Under the pieces are notes generated by a model. It searched no databases. It was not told where the DNA came from and worked only from the letters and a program-made list of their open reading frames with translations. Position numbers and translations under genes: made by a program. Of a stretch of DNA of 64,000 nucleotides, positions 21,261 through 30,582 are shown one piece after another. Position 1 is the stretch's first letter. Each line of letters opens with the position of its first letter. Origin of the DNA: Bacteroidales bacterium (GTDB lineage: Bacteria; Bacteroidota; Bacteroidia; Bacteroidales; VadinHA17); assembly GCA_024763075.1 (NCBI GenBank), contig JANTGF010000004.1, positions 30,853-94,852 on the forward strand, given 5' to 3'.

Positions 21261-23432
21261 ATGAGAACATTATTATTTTCTTTTTTGCTCTTTATTAGTA
21301 TTGAAGCTTTTTCAACCAATTATTATGTTGATTCAAGTGCAACAGGTGCTAACGACGGCACCAGTTGGGTAAATGCATTTGACAGCCTGCACATGGCACT
21401 TGCTGTGGCTGTAGATGCAGATACCATTTTTGTTGCTGAAGGTACTTACCGACCTGCGAATGGAACTGACAGGACGAAGTATTTTGTAATGCCCTCCGGT
21501 GTGAAATTGCTGGGAGGATATCCTTCCGGAGGAGGATGGCCAATGGTGGATGAGCATAAAACCATTCTGTCAGGTGACATAGGTGTGCTGAATGATGACA
21601 GCGACAATACCTATCATGTTATATTCTGTAACATGACCAACCCCCAAACAGAAATAGCACGCTTTTATATTACCGGTGGATATGCGGATGGAGATGGGGA
21701 TGACAGCAAAGGAGGTGGAATTGCCGTGAAGACAAATTCTTCCAGATATTACGGAGTATCAATCCGGGACTGTCGTGTATATGGGAACTATGCCAAATAT
21801 GGTGGCGGGATTGACATCACACGGAAAGGGGATATTTTCAATTCGATTATCGAAAACAACCGGTGTCTTGTTTCAGGTGGGGGGTTGTACATAAATACAG
21901 ATGGAAGGGCATATAATACGATTATTCGGAATAATTATTCCGCCGGTACGGGTGGTGGTGTATATATCGGAGGATTCAATCTGGCCCCGGGGCTTGTAAA
22001 TTGTTTAATTGCCAACAATGAGTCTGTAAGTTTCGGGAGTGGGATAGATCAGTATGAATCTTATGTAATCAACTGTACTATTGTTAATAATAAAGGTCCC
22101 GGAGGGGTCTATCAGAGTTCGATTTATTCAATAATGAGAAATTCTGTGATATGGGGGAACAAACCGTATCAGGTTCAAAATCCGGTTCTTTCAAAATTTG
22201 ACCATTGTGCGATTGCCGATCCGGATGTGGATTTTTCCTCCACAACCAATTTTTATATTGATACATTAAATGCAGGGTTGACGGATACGGTTAATTATCC
22301 TTATTTTCGTTCTCCGGCAGATTCAGTTGGAAATGTTTCTACTCCTGAGGGATTGCAAAATATGAAGGAAGCAGACTGGTATATTGATCCCGGATCTGCC
22401 TGTATCAACGCAGGGGATAAAGATCTCTATCCTGCTGCTGCTCCCGCATATGACCTTTTGGATAATCCGAGAATAATTCTTGACACCATTGACATTGGGG
22501 TCTCCGAAGCTTTGATTGATGTAAGCACTGACACTGCAATTGTTATTGATGACAGGGTAAATCTTTACGGCACTGTTCTTTTTTCCATTGATCTCAACTT
22601 AACCAAAAGAGGTTTTCTTTGGGGGGACAGTCCGGATAACATGGATCATAATATTGAAAATTCTACAAGTGGTTGGTACCGGTTTATGGATACAATACAG
22701 CAAATGCCCTCGCCTGGTATTTATTATTACCGTGCCTGGGGTATGGTTGGACCAAAGATATATCGTGCCCCCGTGAGGAGTTTTGTGGTTTGCTCAAGTG
22801 ATACTTCTTTTGAAAACGTCCGGATATGCAAAGGAGAAAGTTATACATTTCCTGATGGAAGTACCTGGGACAACATATCTGCCGATGGAGAATATATCAG
22901 TTATCTTTCTTCACAAACAGGATGTGACAGCCTTGTGATGACCAGTATCAGTGTCAGTGTGATAGATACATCTGTTAGCATTGACGGGATCATACTCACG
23001 GCTAATGCAGCGAATGCAGATTATCAATGGGTGAACTGTGATAATAATTATGAGATGATATCCGGGGCTACAGACCAGAGTTTTACTGCCTCACAAAACG
23101 GTAGTTATGCTGTGATAATCAATGAAAACAATTGCACCGATACTTCTTTTTGTTATGAGGTAACTACTGTTGGTATAAGAGAAACTGATTTTAAAGGTTC
23201 TTTTGAAATTTTCCCGAATCCGGTGAAAGACCAGTTAAATGTCAGATCAGGTGATGAAGACTTTTCCGGACAAATTGAACTTTGGAGTGTGCTGGGGAAG
23301 ATGGTTTACAGCCTGGGGGTGAAGGATGCCCGCACCATAAATATTTCCATGCCTGGTTTCAGGCCTGGAGTGTATTTTCTGAAAATACATGGGGAAAAGG
23401 AAACGGCTGTATTCAGGATTCTGAAAGAATAA
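21261..23432 (+). CDS. Right-handed parallel beta-helix secreted protein with T9SS type A C-terminal sorting domain
   Basis: YYVDSSATGANDGTSWVNAFDSLHMAL, beta-helix repeats, C-terminal FEIFPNPVKDQLNV ... GVYFLKIHGEKETAVFRILKE. Confidence 0.85.
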   Translation: MRTLLFSFLLFISIEAFSTNYYVDSSATGANDGTSWVNAFDSLHMALAVAVDADTIFVAEGTYRPANGTDRTKYFVMPSGVKLLGGYPSGGGWPMVDEHKTILSGDIGVLNDDSDNTYHVIFCNMTNPQTEIARFYITGGYADGDGDDSKGGGIAVKTNSSRYYGVSIRDCRVYGNYAKYGGGIDITRKGDIFNSIIENNRCLVSGGGLYINTDGRAYNTIIRNNYSAGTGGGVYIGGFNLAPGLVNCLIANNESVSFGSGIDQYESYVINCTIVNNKGPGGVYQSSIYSIMRNSVIWGNKPYQVQNPVLSKFDHCAIADPDVDFSSTTNFYIDTLNAGLTDTVNYPYFRSPADSVGNVSTPEGLQNMKEADWYIDPGSACINAGDKDLYPAAAPAYDLLDNPRIILDTIDIGVSEALIDVSTDTAIVIDDRVNLYGTVLFSIDLNLTKRGFLWGDSPDNMDHNIENSTSGWYRFMDTIQQMPSPGIYYYRAWGMVGPKIYRAPVRSFVVCSSDTSFENVRICKGESYTFPDGSTWDNISADGEYISYLSSQTGCDSLVMTSISVSVIDTSVSIDGIILTANAANADYQWVNCDNNYEMISGATDQSFTASQNGSYAVIINENNCTDTSFCYEVTTVGIRETDFKGSFEIFPNPVKDQLNVRSGDEDFSGQIELWSVLGKMVYSLGVKDARTINISMPGFRPGVYFLKIHGEKETAVFRILKE

Positions 23433-23485
23433 TCTGTTATGTTGTATGCTTTTTTTAAATTACACCAAGAAATAGAAAAAATGTC

Positions 23486-23516
23486 TTTGATATTTGAAAT
23501 ACATTCTTTTACTTTG
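23486..23516 (+). promoter_or_regulatory. Putative trp operon promoter
   Basis: TTTG (23486-23489), 19-nt spacer, TTACTTTG (23509-23516), one base off TAnnTTTG. Confidence 0.5.
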
Positions 23517-23534
23517 CAATGCAAACGAAAAGAA

Positions 23535-23594
23535 ATGCACAAGAATTCAAATAAAAACTGGTGGTGGCACAACGATTTTGACCAAACGTTGTGA
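23535..23594 (+). CDS. Putative trp leader peptide 1, MHKNSNKNWWWHNDFDQTL
   Basis: ATG...TGA 20-codon ORF with three consecutive TGG codons, directly followed by a terminator, upstream of trpE. Confidence 0.85.
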   Translation: MHKNSNKNWWWHNDFDQTL

Positions 23595-23616
23595 TAAGGC
23601 CTGTATATAATAATCT

Positions 23617-23648
23617 AAAAGCCTGTTGTGATCACAACAGGCTTTTTT
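23617..23648 (+). terminator. trp attenuator terminator 1
   Basis: AAAAGCCTGTTGTGATCACAACAGGCTTTT 30-nt perfect palindrome ending in a T tract. Confidence 0.9.
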
Positions 23649-23675
23649 AATGAAAGAGATAAATTATCAGAACTT

Positions 23676-23750
23676 ATGAGTAAAATATTAAACATACGGA
23701 TCATTTCAGGAAAAATGTCAGCATGGTGGTGGCAATGGAATGGAACATAA
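23676..23750 (+). CDS. Putative trp leader peptide 2, MSKILNIRIISGKMSAWWWQWNGT
   Basis: 25-codon ORF with TGG TGG TGG CAA TGG, followed by a second hairpin before trpE. Confidence 0.82.
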   Translation: MSKILNIRIISGKMSAWWWQWNGT

Positions 23751-23782
23751 ATTTAATGGGTGAAAACGGAAAAAGATGCACT

Positions 23783-23825
23783 AAGAGCGGCTTCCGGACA
23801 CCCGGAAGCCGCTCTTTGGTTTTAA
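23783..23825 (+). terminator. trp attenuator terminator 2
   Basis: AAGAGCGGCTTCCGG (23783-23797) / CCGGAAGCCGCTCTT (23802-23816), 15-bp perfect stem, then TGGTTTT. Confidence 0.8.
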
Positions 23826-23857
23826 GAATATAGTTTTAGACTTTTATATTTACACAA

Positions 23858-25261
23858 ATGAAAAACTACTATTTTAAAATAAACACAAAAGAAATACTGG
23901 CAGACATCCTGACTCCTGTGGCAGTTTACCTTAAACTCAGGGATGTCTTTCCAAATTCAATTCTTCTGGAAGGGGCTGACTTTAAAGCAGGTGAAAATCA
24001 ATATTCCTTTATTTGCCTGCAAGCCCTGGCAGGAGTTAAAGCTACCGGAAATATGCTGGAAACAAGATTTCCGGATGGACAACATGAAAAAATTGAGATG
24101 ACAAATCACAGGGAGGTTACGGATGTTTTAAGTGAGTATGCAAAAGTTTTTGTACCTGAAGAAGACATCAGCCATCTTCCTGCTACCGGACTTTTTGGCT
24201 ATTCAACTTATGAGGCGGTTACCTATTTTGAAGACATTCAGTTAAAAAGACCGGATAAAAACATGGTAATTCCGGATTTGTATTACCAGTTCTATAAATA
24301 CATTGTAGCTTTTAACCACACAAGCAATAAGATCATGCTCATTGAGCATCTGTTCAATGAGGATGCTTCCGGACTGCAATTTATTGAGGATCAGTTATTC
24401 AATCGAACTTTTGCAGTATATCCCTTTCATCCGGTAAACGGGGAAACTTCCAATCTGACGGATGAAGAGTACAAAAATATAGTTACCAAAGGAAAACAAC
24501 ACTGCCTGCGGGGAGATGTGTTTCAGATAGTATTATCACGGAGTTTTAGCCAGCAGTTTACCGGAGATGAATTTAATGTTTACCGTGCACTACGTTCAAT
24601 TAATCCTTCTCCCTACCTGTTTTATTTTGATTTTGGGAATTTTAAATTGTTTGGATCTTCTCCGGAAGCCCAGTTAAAGACCGGTTATGGAAAGGCACAT
24701 ATCAACCCGATTGCAGGTACTTTTATGCGAACAGGGAATGATAAAGAAGACAGGGAGCTGGCGAAAAAATTATCGCTGGATCCTAAAGAAAACAGTGAGC
24801 ATGTAATGTTGGTCGATCTTGCCAGGAACGACCTGAGTCGAAATGCCGATGAAGTAAAACTAAATTATTTCAGAGAAATCCATTACTACTCTCATGTTTT
24901 GCATATGGTTTCTGAAGTGGAAGGGAAGATTAGAGAAGGTACGGATCCTATACGGATTTATGCCGATACTTTTCCGGCAGGAACTTTATCAGGGGCACCA
25001 AAATACAGGGCTATGGAACTGATTGATAAATATGAAAACCAGGCCCGTGGATTTTACGGAGGTTGTATTGGAATTATTGGCTTAGAAGGAAAAATTAACC
25101 TGGCTATTACCATACGTTCATTCATGAGTAAAGACAATACACTGCATTATCAGGCGGGAGCCGGGATTGTTGCAGAATCCTCTGAGGAAAGTGAGCTAAA
25201 AGAAGTAAAAAATAAACTGGCAGCACTGAAGAAAGCCATTGTTGAAGCAACTGAAATTTGA
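23858..25261 (+). CDS. trpE: Anthranilate synthase component I
   Basis: Chorismate-binding domain: DVFQIVLSRSF, GSSPEAQLKT, PIAGTFMRTG, GTLSGAPKYRAMELID. Confidence 0.95.
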   Translation: MKNYYFKINTKEILADILTPVAVYLKLRDVFPNSILLEGADFKAGENQYSFICLQALAGVKATGNMLETRFPDGQHEKIEMTNHREVTDVLSEYAKVFVPEEDISHLPATGLFGYSTYEAVTYFEDIQLKRPDKNMVIPDLYYQFYKYIVAFNHTSNKIMLIEHLFNEDASGLQFIEDQLFNRTFAVYPFHPVNGETSNLTDEEYKNIVTKGKQHCLRGDVFQIVLSRSFSQQFTGDEFNVYRALRSINPSPYLFYFDFGNFKLFGSSPEAQLKTGYGKAHINPIAGTFMRTGNDKEDRELAKKLSLDPKENSEHVMLVDLARNDLSRNADEVKLNYFREIHYYSHVLHMVSEVEGKIREGTDPIRIYADTFPAGTLSGAPKYRAMELIDKYENQARGFYGGCIGIIGLEGKINLAITIRSFMSKDNTLHYQAGAGIVAESSEESELKEVKNKLAALKKAIVEATEI

Positions 25262-25288: not shown

Positions 25289-25861
25289 ATGAAAAAAATT
25301 TTAGTGATCGATAATTACGATTCGTTTACCTATAACCTTGTTCATTACATAAAGGATGTTACAGGGGAACTTCCGGATGTATTCAGAAATGATAAAATTA
25401 CCGCCGGAGAAGCCAGGGAATACGACAAGATTTTACTATCTCCAGGACCGGGGATCCCGGATGAGGCGGGTAATCTTAAAGACATTATTAAACAGTGTGC
25501 TCCCCAAAAGAGTATGTTTGGTGTTTGTCTTGGTTTACAGGCAATTGCTGAGGTATTTGGCGGTACTTTGTACAATATGAATAGGGTTTATCACGGAGTT
25601 TCATCGCCCATTATTATAACCAAAGAGAAAGATCCGGTTTTTGAAGGTATGCCTAAAGTTTTTGAAGGGGCCCGTTATCATTCATGGATAGTGAACCGGG
25701 AAGGGCTGCCTCAAACACTGAAAGTAACTGCCATTGATGAGGAGGCACAGATCATGGCGCTGAAACATACGGAGTTTGATGTGAAAGGGGTGCAATTTCA
25801 CCCGGAGTCTATTTTAACCGAGAATGGAGCCAGAATCATTGAAAACTGGATAAATAACTAG
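25289..25861 (+). CDS. trpG: Anthranilate synthase component II (glutamine amidotransferase)
   Basis: IDNYDSFTYNLVHY, LSPGPGIPDEAG, GVCLGLQAIAEVFGG, VQFHPESILTENG. Confidence 0.95.
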   Translation: MKKILVIDNYDSFTYNLVHYIKDVTGELPDVFRNDKITAGEAREYDKILLSPGPGIPDEAGNLKDIIKQCAPQKSMFGVCLGLQAIAEVFGGTLYNMNRVYHGVSSPIIITKEKDPVFEGMPKVFEGARYHSWIVNREGLPQTLKVTAIDEEAQIMALKHTEFDVKGVQFHPESILTENGARIIENWINN

Positions 25862-25887
25862 AAAAAACAAACCTAAAATCACTTACC

Positions 25888-26892
25888 ATGACGGAAATGC
25901 GACAAATAATTACCCATTTATCTGCGCACAAAACTTTAACCAGGGAAGAGGCGAGGAAGATACTTTCAGATATTGCCAATGGAATATACGATGAAGTGGA
26001 GATGGCTTCTTTCATGACTATCTTTCTGATGCGGAGTGTTACTGTGGAAGAGCTTTCGGGGTTCAGGGATGCACTCCTGGAGCATTGCCTGCAGGTTGAT
26101 CTGGCCTGCGATTCCCTGATTGATCTTTGTGGTACAGGAGGAGACGGGAAGGATACCTTTAACATTTCCACACTGGCGTCTTTTGTAACTGCCGGTGCCG
26201 GAGCTAAAGTTGCCAAACACGGTAATTATGGCGTTTCTTCTACCTGTGGTTCCTCAAATATTCTGGAGTTTTTCGGTTACCGGTTTACAAACAATCAGGA
26301 TAATCTCAGGAAACAGATTGAAAAAGCCGGAATTTGCTTTTTGCATGCCCCCCTGTTTAATCCGGCTATGAAAAATGTCGCCCCTGTCAGGAGAGGGCTC
26401 AGGGTAAAAACCTTTTTTAATATGCTGGGACCAATGGTAAATCCTGCCTTTCCACAAAAACAACTGGTGGGTGTTTTCAGCCTGGAGCTGGCACGTATTT
26501 ACAGCTATATTTATCAACAAACCGAAAAGGATTTTGTAATTATCCATAGTCTGGACGGGTATGATGAAATATCCCTGACCGGTGAATTTAAAATGATTAG
26601 CAATAAAAAGGAACAATTAATTGATCCGGAACAGCTGGGATTGGAAAAGGCAAGAGCAGAGGATATAAAAGGTGGATCAACAATAAATGAATCTGCAGAT
26701 ATTTTCAAAAAGATTCTGGAGGGGAATGGCACACCTTCACAGCAAAGTGTTGTTGCCGTAAATGCTGCCTACGCTTTGCAATGTTATTTTGAAAAAGATT
26801 TGGAAGAATGCCTGGCCATGGCGAATGAATCGATAAACAGTGGGAAAGCGAAACAGGCTTTTGAAAAATTAATAGAAGTATCGAATAGTTAA
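25888..26892 (+). CDS. trpD: Anthranilate phosphoribosyltransferase
   Basis: DLCGTGGDGKDTFNISTLASFV, KHGNYGVSSTCGSSN. Confidence 0.95.
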   Translation: MTEMRQIITHLSAHKTLTREEARKILSDIANGIYDEVEMASFMTIFLMRSVTVEELSGFRDALLEHCLQVDLACDSLIDLCGTGGDGKDTFNISTLASFVTAGAGAKVAKHGNYGVSSTCGSSNILEFFGYRFTNNQDNLRKQIEKAGICFLHAPLFNPAMKNVAPVRRGLRVKTFFNMLGPMVNPAFPQKQLVGVFSLELARIYSYIYQQTEKDFVIIHSLDGYDEISLTGEFKMISNKKEQLIDPEQLGLEKARAEDIKGGSTINESADIFKKILEGNGTPSQQSVVAVNAAYALQCYFEKDLEECLAMANESINSGKAKQAFEKLIEVSNS

Positions 26893-26901
26893 GTGAAGGA
26901 G

Positions 26902-27690
26902 ATGGAAAATACAATTCTTAATGAAATCATCCTGAGCAAGCAGAAGGAAGTGGAACTATTAAAAACTTCTGTTCCGATGAAGATGCTGTTGAAAAAGCAA
27001 AGAACCCGGGGGCATTTCTCCATAAAGGAGTTTTTATCGAAAATAGGTGCAAGCGGGATTATTGCAGAGTTCAAGCGCAGGTCTCCTTCCAGGGGCTGGA
27101 TAAACAAAGAAGCAGAACCTGCTATTGTATTACCTGCCTATCAAGAGGCCGGGGCAAGTGCGGTGAGCATATTGACGGATCATCATTTTTTTGGAGGCAG
27201 TCTCTCTGACCTGGAGCTGGCAGGTGAACAAATTGATTTACCTGTTTTGAGAAAGGATTTTATTATTGACGAATATCAGATTGTTGAGGCGGCAATTGCA
27301 GGGGCAGATGTCATCCTCTTAATTGCTGCAAACCTGTCCACCGGAATGGTAATGCAGCTGGCTAATACGGCAAAACAACTTCAACTGGAGGTGCTGCTTG
27401 AGATTCATAATCAGGAAGAACTCGGCCATATTTGTGAGGATGTCGACCTGGTTGGTGTGAATAACAGGAATTTGCATACTTTTAAAACAGAATTACAAAC
27501 CTCCGTAGATCTGAGTACAAAAATCCCTGATCAATTTATGAAAATATCTGAAAGTGGCATTGATCATCCGGATGATATTAAGTTTTTAAAAAAACATGGT
27601 TATAAGGGATTTCTGATAGGAGAACGTTTTATGAAAACAAATAATCCCGGAGGAGCGTGTGGTAAGTTTGTAAAAGAATTGGGTCCATGA
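26902..27690 (+). CDS. trpC: Indole-3-glycerol phosphate synthase
   Basis: IIAEFKRRSPSRGWI, SILTDHHFFGGSLSDL, LRKDFIIDEYQI, VGVNNRNLHTF. Confidence 0.95.
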   Translation: MENTILNEIILSKQKEVELLKTSVPMKMLLKKQRTRGHFSIKEFLSKIGASGIIAEFKRRSPSRGWINKEAEPAIVLPAYQEAGASAVSILTDHHFFGGSLSDLELAGEQIDLPVLRKDFIIDEYQIVEAAIAGADVILLIAANLSTGMVMQLANTAKQLQLEVLLEIHNQEELGHICEDVDLVGVNNRNLHTFKTELQTSVDLSTKIPDQFMKISESGIDHPDDIKFLKKHGYKGFLIGERFMKTNNPGGACGKFVKELGP

Positions 27691-27760
27691 GTAATAGATG
27701 AAGCATCCATGAAAAACGCCTGCCTGAATGAATTATTTGAGCAGGTAATGGGATGATAAT

Positions 27761-27802
27761 AAAAGCCCCCGGTGGGGCGTGATGTATATAACCAGGGCTT
27801 TT
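27761..27802 (+). other. Terminator-like hairpin in the trpC-trpF gap
   Basis: AAAAGCCC (27761-27768) / GGGCTTTT (27795-27802); alternative GCCCC/GGGGC pairing inside it. Confidence 0.5.
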
Positions 27803-27941
27803 AAGTAGGGGGGATGACAAAATATAAAACATTGACAAACTAAATGTAACAAAAATATAGGCAGGTGAAGATATATTATCTTTTAAAACTTGTTGAATTT
27901 GGGCTTGTCTTAAAATTAATTAATTATTTAATAGATTTATA

Positions 27942-28553
27942 ATGGGATTAAAGATTAAAATATGTGGAATGCGTGAAGAGGAGAACATCCTTCAGACAGA
28001 TGCATTGAAACCGGATTATCTGGGTTTTATTTTTTATCCCCCTTCCCCCAGGTATATTGGTTCTGTTTCCCTTCCGGATGTGAATGCAAAAAAAGCGGGT
28101 GTGTTTGTAAATGAACCACTCCACTCCCTGCTTCAGAAGGCGGCTGTTTATAATCTTGATGTGATTCAGTTGCATGGGGAAGAGTCACCGGAGACATGTA
28201 AGGTGCTTCGTGAATTTAATTACGAGGTGTGGAAGGTTTTTAAAATAGGAGAGGATACAAATTCCGATATGGTAAAACCTTTCGAGGGACTTTGTGAGTA
28301 TTTTTTATATGATACAAAGACAAACGGACATGGTGGTTCCGGAAAAAAGTTTGATTGGACAAAGCTAAATGAACTGTCATCACTGGGTCCGTTTTTGCTG
28401 AGTGGAGGCATCGGACCGGAAGATGTGGAGAGAATAAAGAATCTGAATATTGAGAATCTTGCAGGAGTAGATGTGAACAGCCGGTTTGAGGCAAGTGCTG
28501 CTGTAAAAGATATTGCAATGCTGTCAGACTTTATCAATGCAATAAGGAACTAA
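27942..28553 (+). CDS. trpF: Phosphoribosylanthranilate isomerase
   Basis: LKIKICGMREEENI, DYLGFIFYPPSPRY, VIQLHGEESPE, LSGGIGPEDV. Confidence 0.93.
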   Translation: MGLKIKICGMREEENILQTDALKPDYLGFIFYPPSPRYIGSVSLPDVNAKKAGVFVNEPLHSLLQKAAVYNLDVIQLHGEESPETCKVLREFNYEVWKVFKIGEDTNSDMVKPFEGLCEYFLYDTKTNGHGGSGKKFDWTKLNELSSLGPFLLSGGIGPEDVERIKNLNIENLAGVDVNSRFEASAAVKDIAMLSDFINAIRN

Positions 28554-28570
28554 TAGATGAACTGTTTGTT

Positions 28571-29812
28571 ATGGATTATTTTGTAAATAAAAAAGGATAT
28601 TACGGAAAATTCGGTGGGGCTTATATTCCTGAAATGCTTTATCCGAATGTAAAAGAGCTGGAAGAGAACTATTTGAAAATTATGGAGAGTGAGGCTTTCA
28701 AAAATGAGTTTGCAAGCCTGCTTAAAAATTATGTTGGCAGGCCTTCTCCTTTGTATTACAGTGAGAGGTTATCAGGTAAATATGGAGTTAAGCTATATCT
28801 GAAAAGAGAGGACTTGAATCATACCGGCTCTCATAAAATAAATAATACCATCGGCCAGATACTGATGGCTCGTTTTCTTGGGAAGAAGAGGATTATTGCT
28901 GAAACAGGAGCCGGCCAGCATGGAGTGGCAACCGCTACGGTTTGTGCCAGGGAGGGAGTGGAATGCGTGGTTTTTATGGGTGCTACCGATGTTGCCCGCC
29001 AAAAACCCAATGTGGAGAAAATGGAAATGCTGGGTGCCACTGTAATACCGGTTGAATCGGGCAACAAAACACTTAAGGACGCGACCAATGATGCCATTCG
29101 TCACTGGATAAGCCATCCGGATGAGACACATTATATCATAGGTTCTGTTGTGGGCCCTCATCCATACCCTGATATGGTGGCACGTTTTCAATCAGTGATT
29201 AGTAAAGAAATGCGTTCCCAGCTTAATAAACAAACGGGGTCTCCTTTACCGGACAAGATCATTGCCTGTGTGGGTGGGGGGAGTAATGCTGCAGGAGCTT
29301 TCTATCATTATCTGAACGAAAATAAAGTAGAATTGATAGCTGTTGAGGCCGATGGACTGGGTCTGGAAACCGGCCATACAGCTGCAACAACGGCAGCAGG
29401 TACTCCGGGAATTATTCATGGAAGCATGACCTTGCTGATGCAGACCGGGGATGGACAGATCATTGAACCTTATTCTATTTCCGCCGGACTGGATTATCCA
29501 GGAATTGGTCCATTACATGCACATCTTTTTGATGTGAACAGAGCCGGGTTTTACCGGGCGACTGATCAGGAAGCTCTGGATGCTGCTTTTGAACTTACGC
29601 GTCTGGAAGGGATCATTCCTGCTCTTGAATCAGCACATGCATTGGCCGCTCTTCCAAAAATAAAATTCGGGAAAGGAGAAGTAGTTGTGGTGAATATCTC
29701 TGGTAGGGGAGACAAAGATATGGAAGCGTACAGGAAACATCTGTTAGCCGAAAAAAGGATGAAATTCAAAAAAGAAAGATTTAAATATTTATTTTGGAAA
29801 TTTATAAAATGA
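28571..29812 (+). CDS. trpB: Tryptophan synthase beta chain
   Basis: YGKFGGAYIPEML, LKREDLNHTGSHKINN (PLP Lys), ETGAGQHGVATA, CVGGGSNAAG. Confidence 0.96.
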   Translation: MDYFVNKKGYYGKFGGAYIPEMLYPNVKELEENYLKIMESEAFKNEFASLLKNYVGRPSPLYYSERLSGKYGVKLYLKREDLNHTGSHKINNTIGQILMARFLGKKRIIAETGAGQHGVATATVCAREGVECVVFMGATDVARQKPNVEKMEMLGATVIPVESGNKTLKDATNDAIRHWISHPDETHYIIGSVVGPHPYPDMVARFQSVISKEMRSQLNKQTGSPLPDKIIACVGGGSNAAGAFYHYLNENKVELIAVEADGLGLETGHTAATTAAGTPGIIHGSMTLLMQTGDGQIIEPYSISAGLDYPGIGPLHAHLFDVNRAGFYRATDQEALDAAFELTRLEGIIPALESAHALAALPKIKFGKGEVVVVNISGRGDKDMEAYRKHLLAEKRMKFKKERFKYLFWKFIK

Positions 29813-30582
29813 ACAGAATTACAGAGCTCTTCAATAAGAAAAAGAGAAACGTTCTTTCTTTCTATTTTACAGCAGGTCATCCGGAGCCGGACTCCACTCT
29901 TTCTATCCTCAAATCCCTGGAAAAAAACGGAGCAGATATGGTTGAGATCGGGATGCCGTTTTCCGATCCTCTGGCAGATGGTCCTGTGATTCAGCAAAGC
30001 AGCCAGATAGCTCTGAAAAACGGAATGACAATTAAAAAGTTGTTAGCAGCCCTTGAATCTGTCAGAGAGGAGGTTACTATTCCGCTTTTGTGTATGGGGT
30101 ATTTTAATACAGTGCTGCAGTTCGGAATGGAAAACTTTTGCAAAACAATCAGTCAAATTGGTATTGACGGGGTGATATTGCCAGATTTACCCCTGGAAGT
30201 TTATTCGGAGAAATATCAGGCCATATTTGAAAGGTACGGCATTATCCCTGTTTTTCTGATTACTCCGGGAACTTCTGATGAACGTATCCGGCAAACTGAA
30301 AAGTATTCCAAAGGGTTTATCTATATGGTATCTTCGGCCTCGGTAACAGGAGCAAAAAAAGGCTTTGGCAATGAGCAACTTGCTTACTTTAAGCGGATAA
30401 AGGAAATGAATCTTTCAGTTCCGGTGATGGCCGGCTTTGGTATATCCGATAAATTTACCTTTAATCAGGTTTCAGATTATGCTGCCGGTGGGATTATAGG
30501 CAGTGCTTTTGTTTCTCACCTTCAAAAAGAAGGTGCTTCTGAAAATAGCATAGGGGAGTTTATAAAAAGGATTGTGAAGTAG
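29809..30582 (+). CDS. trpA: Tryptophan synthase alpha chain
   Basis: FYFTAGHPEPDSTLSIL, VEIGMPFSDPLADGPVIQQ, DGVILPDLPLEV; ATGA overlap with trpB. Confidence 0.95.
   Translation: MNRITELFNKKKRNVLSFYFTAGHPEPDSTLSILKSLEKNGADMVEIGMPFSDPLADGPVIQQSSQIALKNGMTIKKLLAALESVREEVTIPLLCMGYFNTVLQFGMENFCKTISQIGIDGVILPDLPLEVYSEKYQAIFERYGIIPVFLITPGTSDERIRQTEKYSKGFIYMVSSASVTGAKKGFGNEQLAYFKRIKEMNLSVPVMAGFGISDKFTFNQVSDYAAGGIIGSAFVSHLQKEGASENSIGEFIKRIVK

Follow-up and report, generated by a model that had tools for sequence, protein, structure and literature searches.

Probable serial pair of tryptophan leader-peptide attenuators upstream of the trp operon in Bacteroidales

The trp operon in the window, which is the whole 64,000-nucleotide stretch of Bacteroidales DNA that was analysed, is preceded by two complete and dissimilar attenuator units, read directly in the sequence at 23480-23857, upstream of trpEGDCFBA. 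With a probability of about 0.8, they represent two complete ribosome-mediated transcription attenuators arranged in series and carried by one transcript, whose start lies a short way 5' of leader 1. The anatomy of the region, its conservation, the predicted antiterminator alternatives and the probable single-transcript layout were established computationally. Attenuation is taught as one switch per operon. The doubled trp leader appears to be a genuine regulatory design and no accident, because the doubling recurs in other Bacteroidales families and before histidine genes.

Organization of the trp leader and operon

The two Trp-rich leaders, the two terminators and the trpE start were found on direct reading where the first-pass annotation had placed them (Table 1). 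An additional in-frame ATG lies upstream of leader 1 at 23481; its use as a start is unlikely, because it is also located upstream of the promoter candidate. For leader 2, the inner ATG at 23715 is an alternative start. The two units differ in several details. The tail of terminator 2, TTTGGTTTT, is an interrupted U-tract, weaker than the T-run of terminator 1, and a 1:2 pause hairpin is clear on folding in unit 1, whereas none is clear in unit 2. The sole direct repeat between the units is 12 nt long at 92% identity. The arrangement is therefore neither an assembly artefact nor the result of a recent duplication, and the possibility that unit 2 is a duplicate of unit 1 was rejected for the window. 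At the Rfam gathering threshold, no T-box, riboswitch or other family was found in the trp leader, the matches in the window being two tRNAs only.

Table 1. Features of the trp leader region and operon in the window
Feature	Position	Strand	Details
Promoter candidate, Bacteroidetes-type	23486..23516	+	TTTG 23486-23489, 19 nt spacer, TTACTTTG 23509-23516; 26 nt upstream of leader 1 start
Leader peptide 1	23535..23594	+	ATG 23535 to TGA 23594; MHKNSNKNWWWHNDFDQTL; three Trp codons (WWW) 23559-23567
Unit 1 region 1:2 hairpin (folding)	23568..23593	+	CACAACG 23568-23574 with CGTTGTG 23587-23593; directly 3' of Trp codons
Unit 1 predicted antiterminator	23590..23636	+	TGTGAT 23590-23595 with ATCACA 23631-23636; AGGC 23597-23600 with GCCT 23621-23624
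Terminator 1	23617..23648	+	15-bp perfect inverted repeat 23617-23646, plus T-run
Leader peptide 2	23676..23750	+	ATG 23676 to TAA 23750; MSKILNIRIISGKMSAWWWQWNGT; four Trp codons in five (WWWQW) 23724-23738
Unit 2 predicted antiterminator	23758..23803	+	GGGTG 23758-23762 with CACCC 23799-23803; CGGAA 23767-23771 with TTCCG 23792-23796
Terminator 2	23783..23824	+	15-bp perfect stem 23783-23816, 4-nt loop, tail TTTGGTTTT
trpE, anthranilate synthase component I, first structural gene	23858..25261	+	TIGR00564, E=1.3e-125, below the model's curated cut-off
Rest of operon	25289..30582	+	trpG 25289, trpD 25888, trpC 26893, trpF 27942, trpB 28571, trpA about 29809; NCBIfam

The operon order, trpE-G-D-C-F-B-A, was named by NCBIfam matches. 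The TrpE protein of the window shares 67-75% identity with its counterparts in other families (Salinivirgaceae-type, f19 and f96) and no more than about 57% with those in members of its own family, f1. This closer similarity to other families suggests that the trp operon has moved horizontally, perhaps with its leader included.

Alternative folding within each unit

The switching of each unit was modelled by state folds, in which the RNA left free by the ribosome was folded and the ribosome edge was assumed to lie 13 nt 3' of the first A-site nucleotide. With the ribosome on the Trp codons, an antiterminator is predicted in both window units, at -5.7 kcal/mol in unit 1 and -15.2 kcal/mol in unit 2. 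With the ribosome at the stop codon, the antiterminator is gone from both and the terminator alone remains. The same potential is present in every aligned unit: each contains a stretch, located at the leader stop codon or immediately 3' of it, whose complement is found in the left arm or the loop of its own terminator. In a duplex test against shuffles, window unit 1 taken alone gave p = 0.07 and unit 2 gave p = 0.02; such single-unit tests are often not significant by themselves (7/25 for unit 2). Across the tandem loci, pairing with the own terminator was stronger than that of shuffled segments (mean z -1.87 in unit 1 and -1.45 in unit 2), and the single units of one-unit loci gave a mean z of -2.29 in the same test. 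Moreover, in 37 of 50 comparisons within a genome, a unit paired better with its own terminator than with that of the other unit (p = 0.0009). The earlier description of the region as a tandem attenuator is thus strengthened, since each unit has its own antiterminator/terminator alternative and doubled units are also present in other families and in his operons.

The antiterminator of Prolixibacteraceae unit 1 contains two pairs that change on both sides (UA to CG and GC; GC to AU), and 88.8% of the cells are paired in its structure vs 32 to 67% in slid registers. The covariation is modest, as the alignment comprises 8 sequences and the observed values are matched or exceeded in 24 to 126 of 500 column shuffles, so that the column-shuffle support is only suggestive. 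In the same family (L011, L015-L017, L019, L020, L023, L045 and L114; nine sequences from several genera), the unit 1 leader is nearly invariant, non-Trp residues included (IWLPWWGLLT), and the first Trp codon lies within a fully conserved stem, CAATATGGC/GCCATATTG. This conservation goes beyond the requirements of the Trp codons and might point to an additional effect of the nascent peptide.

Occurrence in Bacteroidales and transcript layout

Regions of 450 nt upstream of trpE from 189 loci, gathered by three routes, were searched with a detector that required a leader no longer than 40 aa with two or more Trp in five codons, followed within 100 nt by a hairpin that had a T-rich tail and a folding energy of -8 kcal/mol or lower. 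One unit was found in 114 loci, none in 48 and two in 27, of which 25 are true; L012 and L083 were rejected as tandem, their first 'leader' being upstream coding sequence. The doubled arrangement is a minority among the trpE loci surveyed. The expectation of the first-pass annotation that two runs of Trp codons, each with its hairpin, would hardly arise by chance is confirmed by dinucleotide shuffles, which yielded two units in 0/756 and one unit in 1/756. Outside Bacteroidales, each of the 49 trpE loci examined in further orders of its class had exactly one unit. On a trpE tree built with FastTree, on which gains are not separable from losses, the tandem state requires about 12 changes and is distributed over roughly seven lineages. 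Prolixibacteraceae and related freshwater MAGs are tandem in 16 of 20 rows of this tree, and the remaining tandem lineages are one formed by the window and two Salinivirgaceae MAGs, and others represented by one or two genomes each, in families f80, f56, f97, f114 and f7. Cultured tandem strains are Draconibacterium orientale FH5T (Prolixibacteraceae), Draconibacterium sediminis, Maribellus maritimus and Mariniphaga sediminis. In the large upper clade of the tree (L160, L186, L190, L194, L162 and others), the detector finds no Trp leader in 38 of 43 rows, and trp control is therefore probably different there.

Conservation, which the first-pass annotation had named as a check on its reading, was found for both leaders, leader 1 having equivalents in L003, L030, L002, L111 and L112, and leader 2 in L003 and L030. 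In the aligned units, the Trp runs, terminators and antiterminators of both are kept as far as L003 and L030. The one-unit state of L002/L111 and L112, which are close relatives of the window, indicates that the second unit is dispensable in some lineages. These relatives, together with the weak U-tract of terminator 2 and the absence of a clear 1:2 hairpin in unit 2, are what may be expected if one unit alone regulates the operon and the other is either a duplicate in decay or a terminator that acts constitutively. Such an explanation is unlikely, given that both units retain all their elements up to the distant L003 and L030, that unit 1 is almost invariant in the nine Prolixibacteraceae sequences, and that a constitutive terminator placed in series would merely silence the operon.

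The serial reading also implies that both units are transcribed together. The motif T[AT]NNTTTG, which we take to be the Bacteroidetes -7 type promoter element, precedes leader 1 by 23-33 nt in 16 of the 25 tandem loci, the window included. Upstream of leader 2 it occurs in 1 of 25, terminator T-tract matches being set aside (Fisher p = 1e-5). Counts of TGGTGGTGG in whole genomes were uninformative, as they matched those of the reversed-pattern control. The distance from the end of the terminator 1 stem to the leader 2 start codon has a median of 27 nt (16 to 89) and is usually 16-33 nt, so a separate promoter would overlap terminator 1 in most loci. Motif position and short spacing together indicate that both leaders are almost certainly carried by one transcript, as had been proposed at first sight. 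Two alternative promoters with one attenuator each are quite improbable. In the window, leader 2 follows the T-run by about 27 nt, the promoter consensus used for this lineage is a presumed one, and L005 does carry TTAATTTG 23 nt before its leader 2. Against this, no credible promoter and no motif was found between the units of the window, in agreement with the first-pass annotation; 5 of the 6 leader 2 matches across the tandem loci are terminator T-tracts, and most relatives leave no room for a promoter outside terminator 1.

It is hardly credible that terminator 1 and its ORF belong to the gene at 21261-23432 and have nothing to do with trp, and this assignment was rejected. In its favour, the gene and leader 1 share a strand, about 100 nt lie between them, and the scan of 23200-24000 revealed no further terminator-like site for the gene. 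However, leader 1 carries three consecutive Trp codons with a 1:2 hairpin, and unit 1 stays beside trpE in L003, L030, L002 and L112 where the upstream genes differ, the window's upstream protein having no match in any other fetched locus, so that unit 1 goes with trpE rather than with a fixed upstream gene.

Proposed mechanism and relation to other serial attenuators

For two attenuators in series on one transcript, the following sequence of events is proposed. Transcription would start just upstream of leader 1 and run through both units. When charged tRNA-Trp is scarce, we infer that the ribosome stalls on the Trp codons of a unit; the segment around the leader stop codon could then pair with the left arm and loop of the terminator, and RNA polymerase would continue. 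When Trp is plentiful, the ribosome would reach the stop codon and cover this segment, and the terminator would form. With termination possible at both hairpins, trpE would be reached only past both decisions, and the read-through probabilities would multiply; the response might also be sharpened, as the first-pass annotation suggested. The likeliest gain from serial control would be a larger control range in a genome without the TrpR repressor. TrpR (PF01371) was not found in the 12 genomes searched, 8 of which are tandem genomes besides the window's own, and the control search gave a match in E. coli. The data fit equally well with two thresholds, set by the different construction of the leaders.

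Serial leaders are not peculiar to trp, as tandem His leaders are present upstream of hisG. Of the 76 hisG loci of Bacteroidales, a single His unit was detected in 55 and a pair of units, each followed by a terminator of its own, in 8 (L199, 891-1350; L205, L228, L237, L300, L306, L315 and L319; L300 and L319 are weaker cases), and 380 shuffles gave no unit at all. The genomes of L199 (G248) and L205 (G233) also carry a tandem trp leader. The hisG of the window genome has a single His leader (MKSFQLHHLHHHTGFQARRR, L198), and no convincing tandem was found among the leaders upstream of ilvD and pheA. Same-amino-acid serial leader-peptide attenuators may thus be a recurrently evolved Bacteroidales design (about seven lineages have it for trp and several for his, and at least two genomes have both), which would stand in for the repressor by multiplying two charging-dependent terminations, with differently built leaders setting different thresholds; we regard this broader proposal as evenly balanced.

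The window leader would work like classical trp attenuation twice over. It shares with the E. coli type trp leader (trpL) the short leader ORF, adjacent Trp codons, an antiterminator competing with an intrinsic terminator, and the position upstream of trpE. However, E. coli has one unit plus the TrpR repressor, whereas the window has two dissimilar units in series and TrpR was not found. Comparative prediction had already identified leaders with UGG runs outside Proteobacteria, in Actinobacteria, but with one unit per operon, and the text of that paper contains no mention of tandem or two leaders (PMC1262725). A search of the open literature for tandem or double amino-acid attenuators and for Bacteroidetes leaders returned, as relevant matches, mgtCBR and single leaders only. 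Salmonella mgtCBR, the only experimentally described tandem attenuators that we met there, has two short ORFs acting as attenuators in one leader mRNA; these respond to different signals, ATP and proline, while the two units of the window have Trp codons in common and a separate intrinsic terminator each (PMC3641672). Double T-boxes are known in Firmicutes (PMC9413887), and tandem T-boxes have been listed with their mode of action given as unknown (PMC7583486). Tandem T-boxes and riboswitches are likewise RNA switches in series whose ligands are identical or related, and double T-boxes also sense tRNA charging, but they bind the tRNA or metabolite directly, without a leader peptide or ribosome. 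No description of same-signal tandem leader-peptide attenuators was found in the open-text literature searched. The same-signal doubling therefore appears new, although an earlier note is possible.

Conserved doubling of a switch that senses one signal, seen for trp and his in several lineages and in genomes without TrpR, is a clean natural system in which to ask what serial attenuation buys, be it dynamic range, threshold or noise. Cultured tandem strains exist for this purpose, and single-unit relatives are natural controls.

A further structure was noted inside the operon itself. The gap between trpC and trpF (27691-27941) comprises 251 nt of non-coding sequence with an imperfect hairpin, AAAAGCCC...GGGCTTTT, which is possibly an internal terminator or attenuator.
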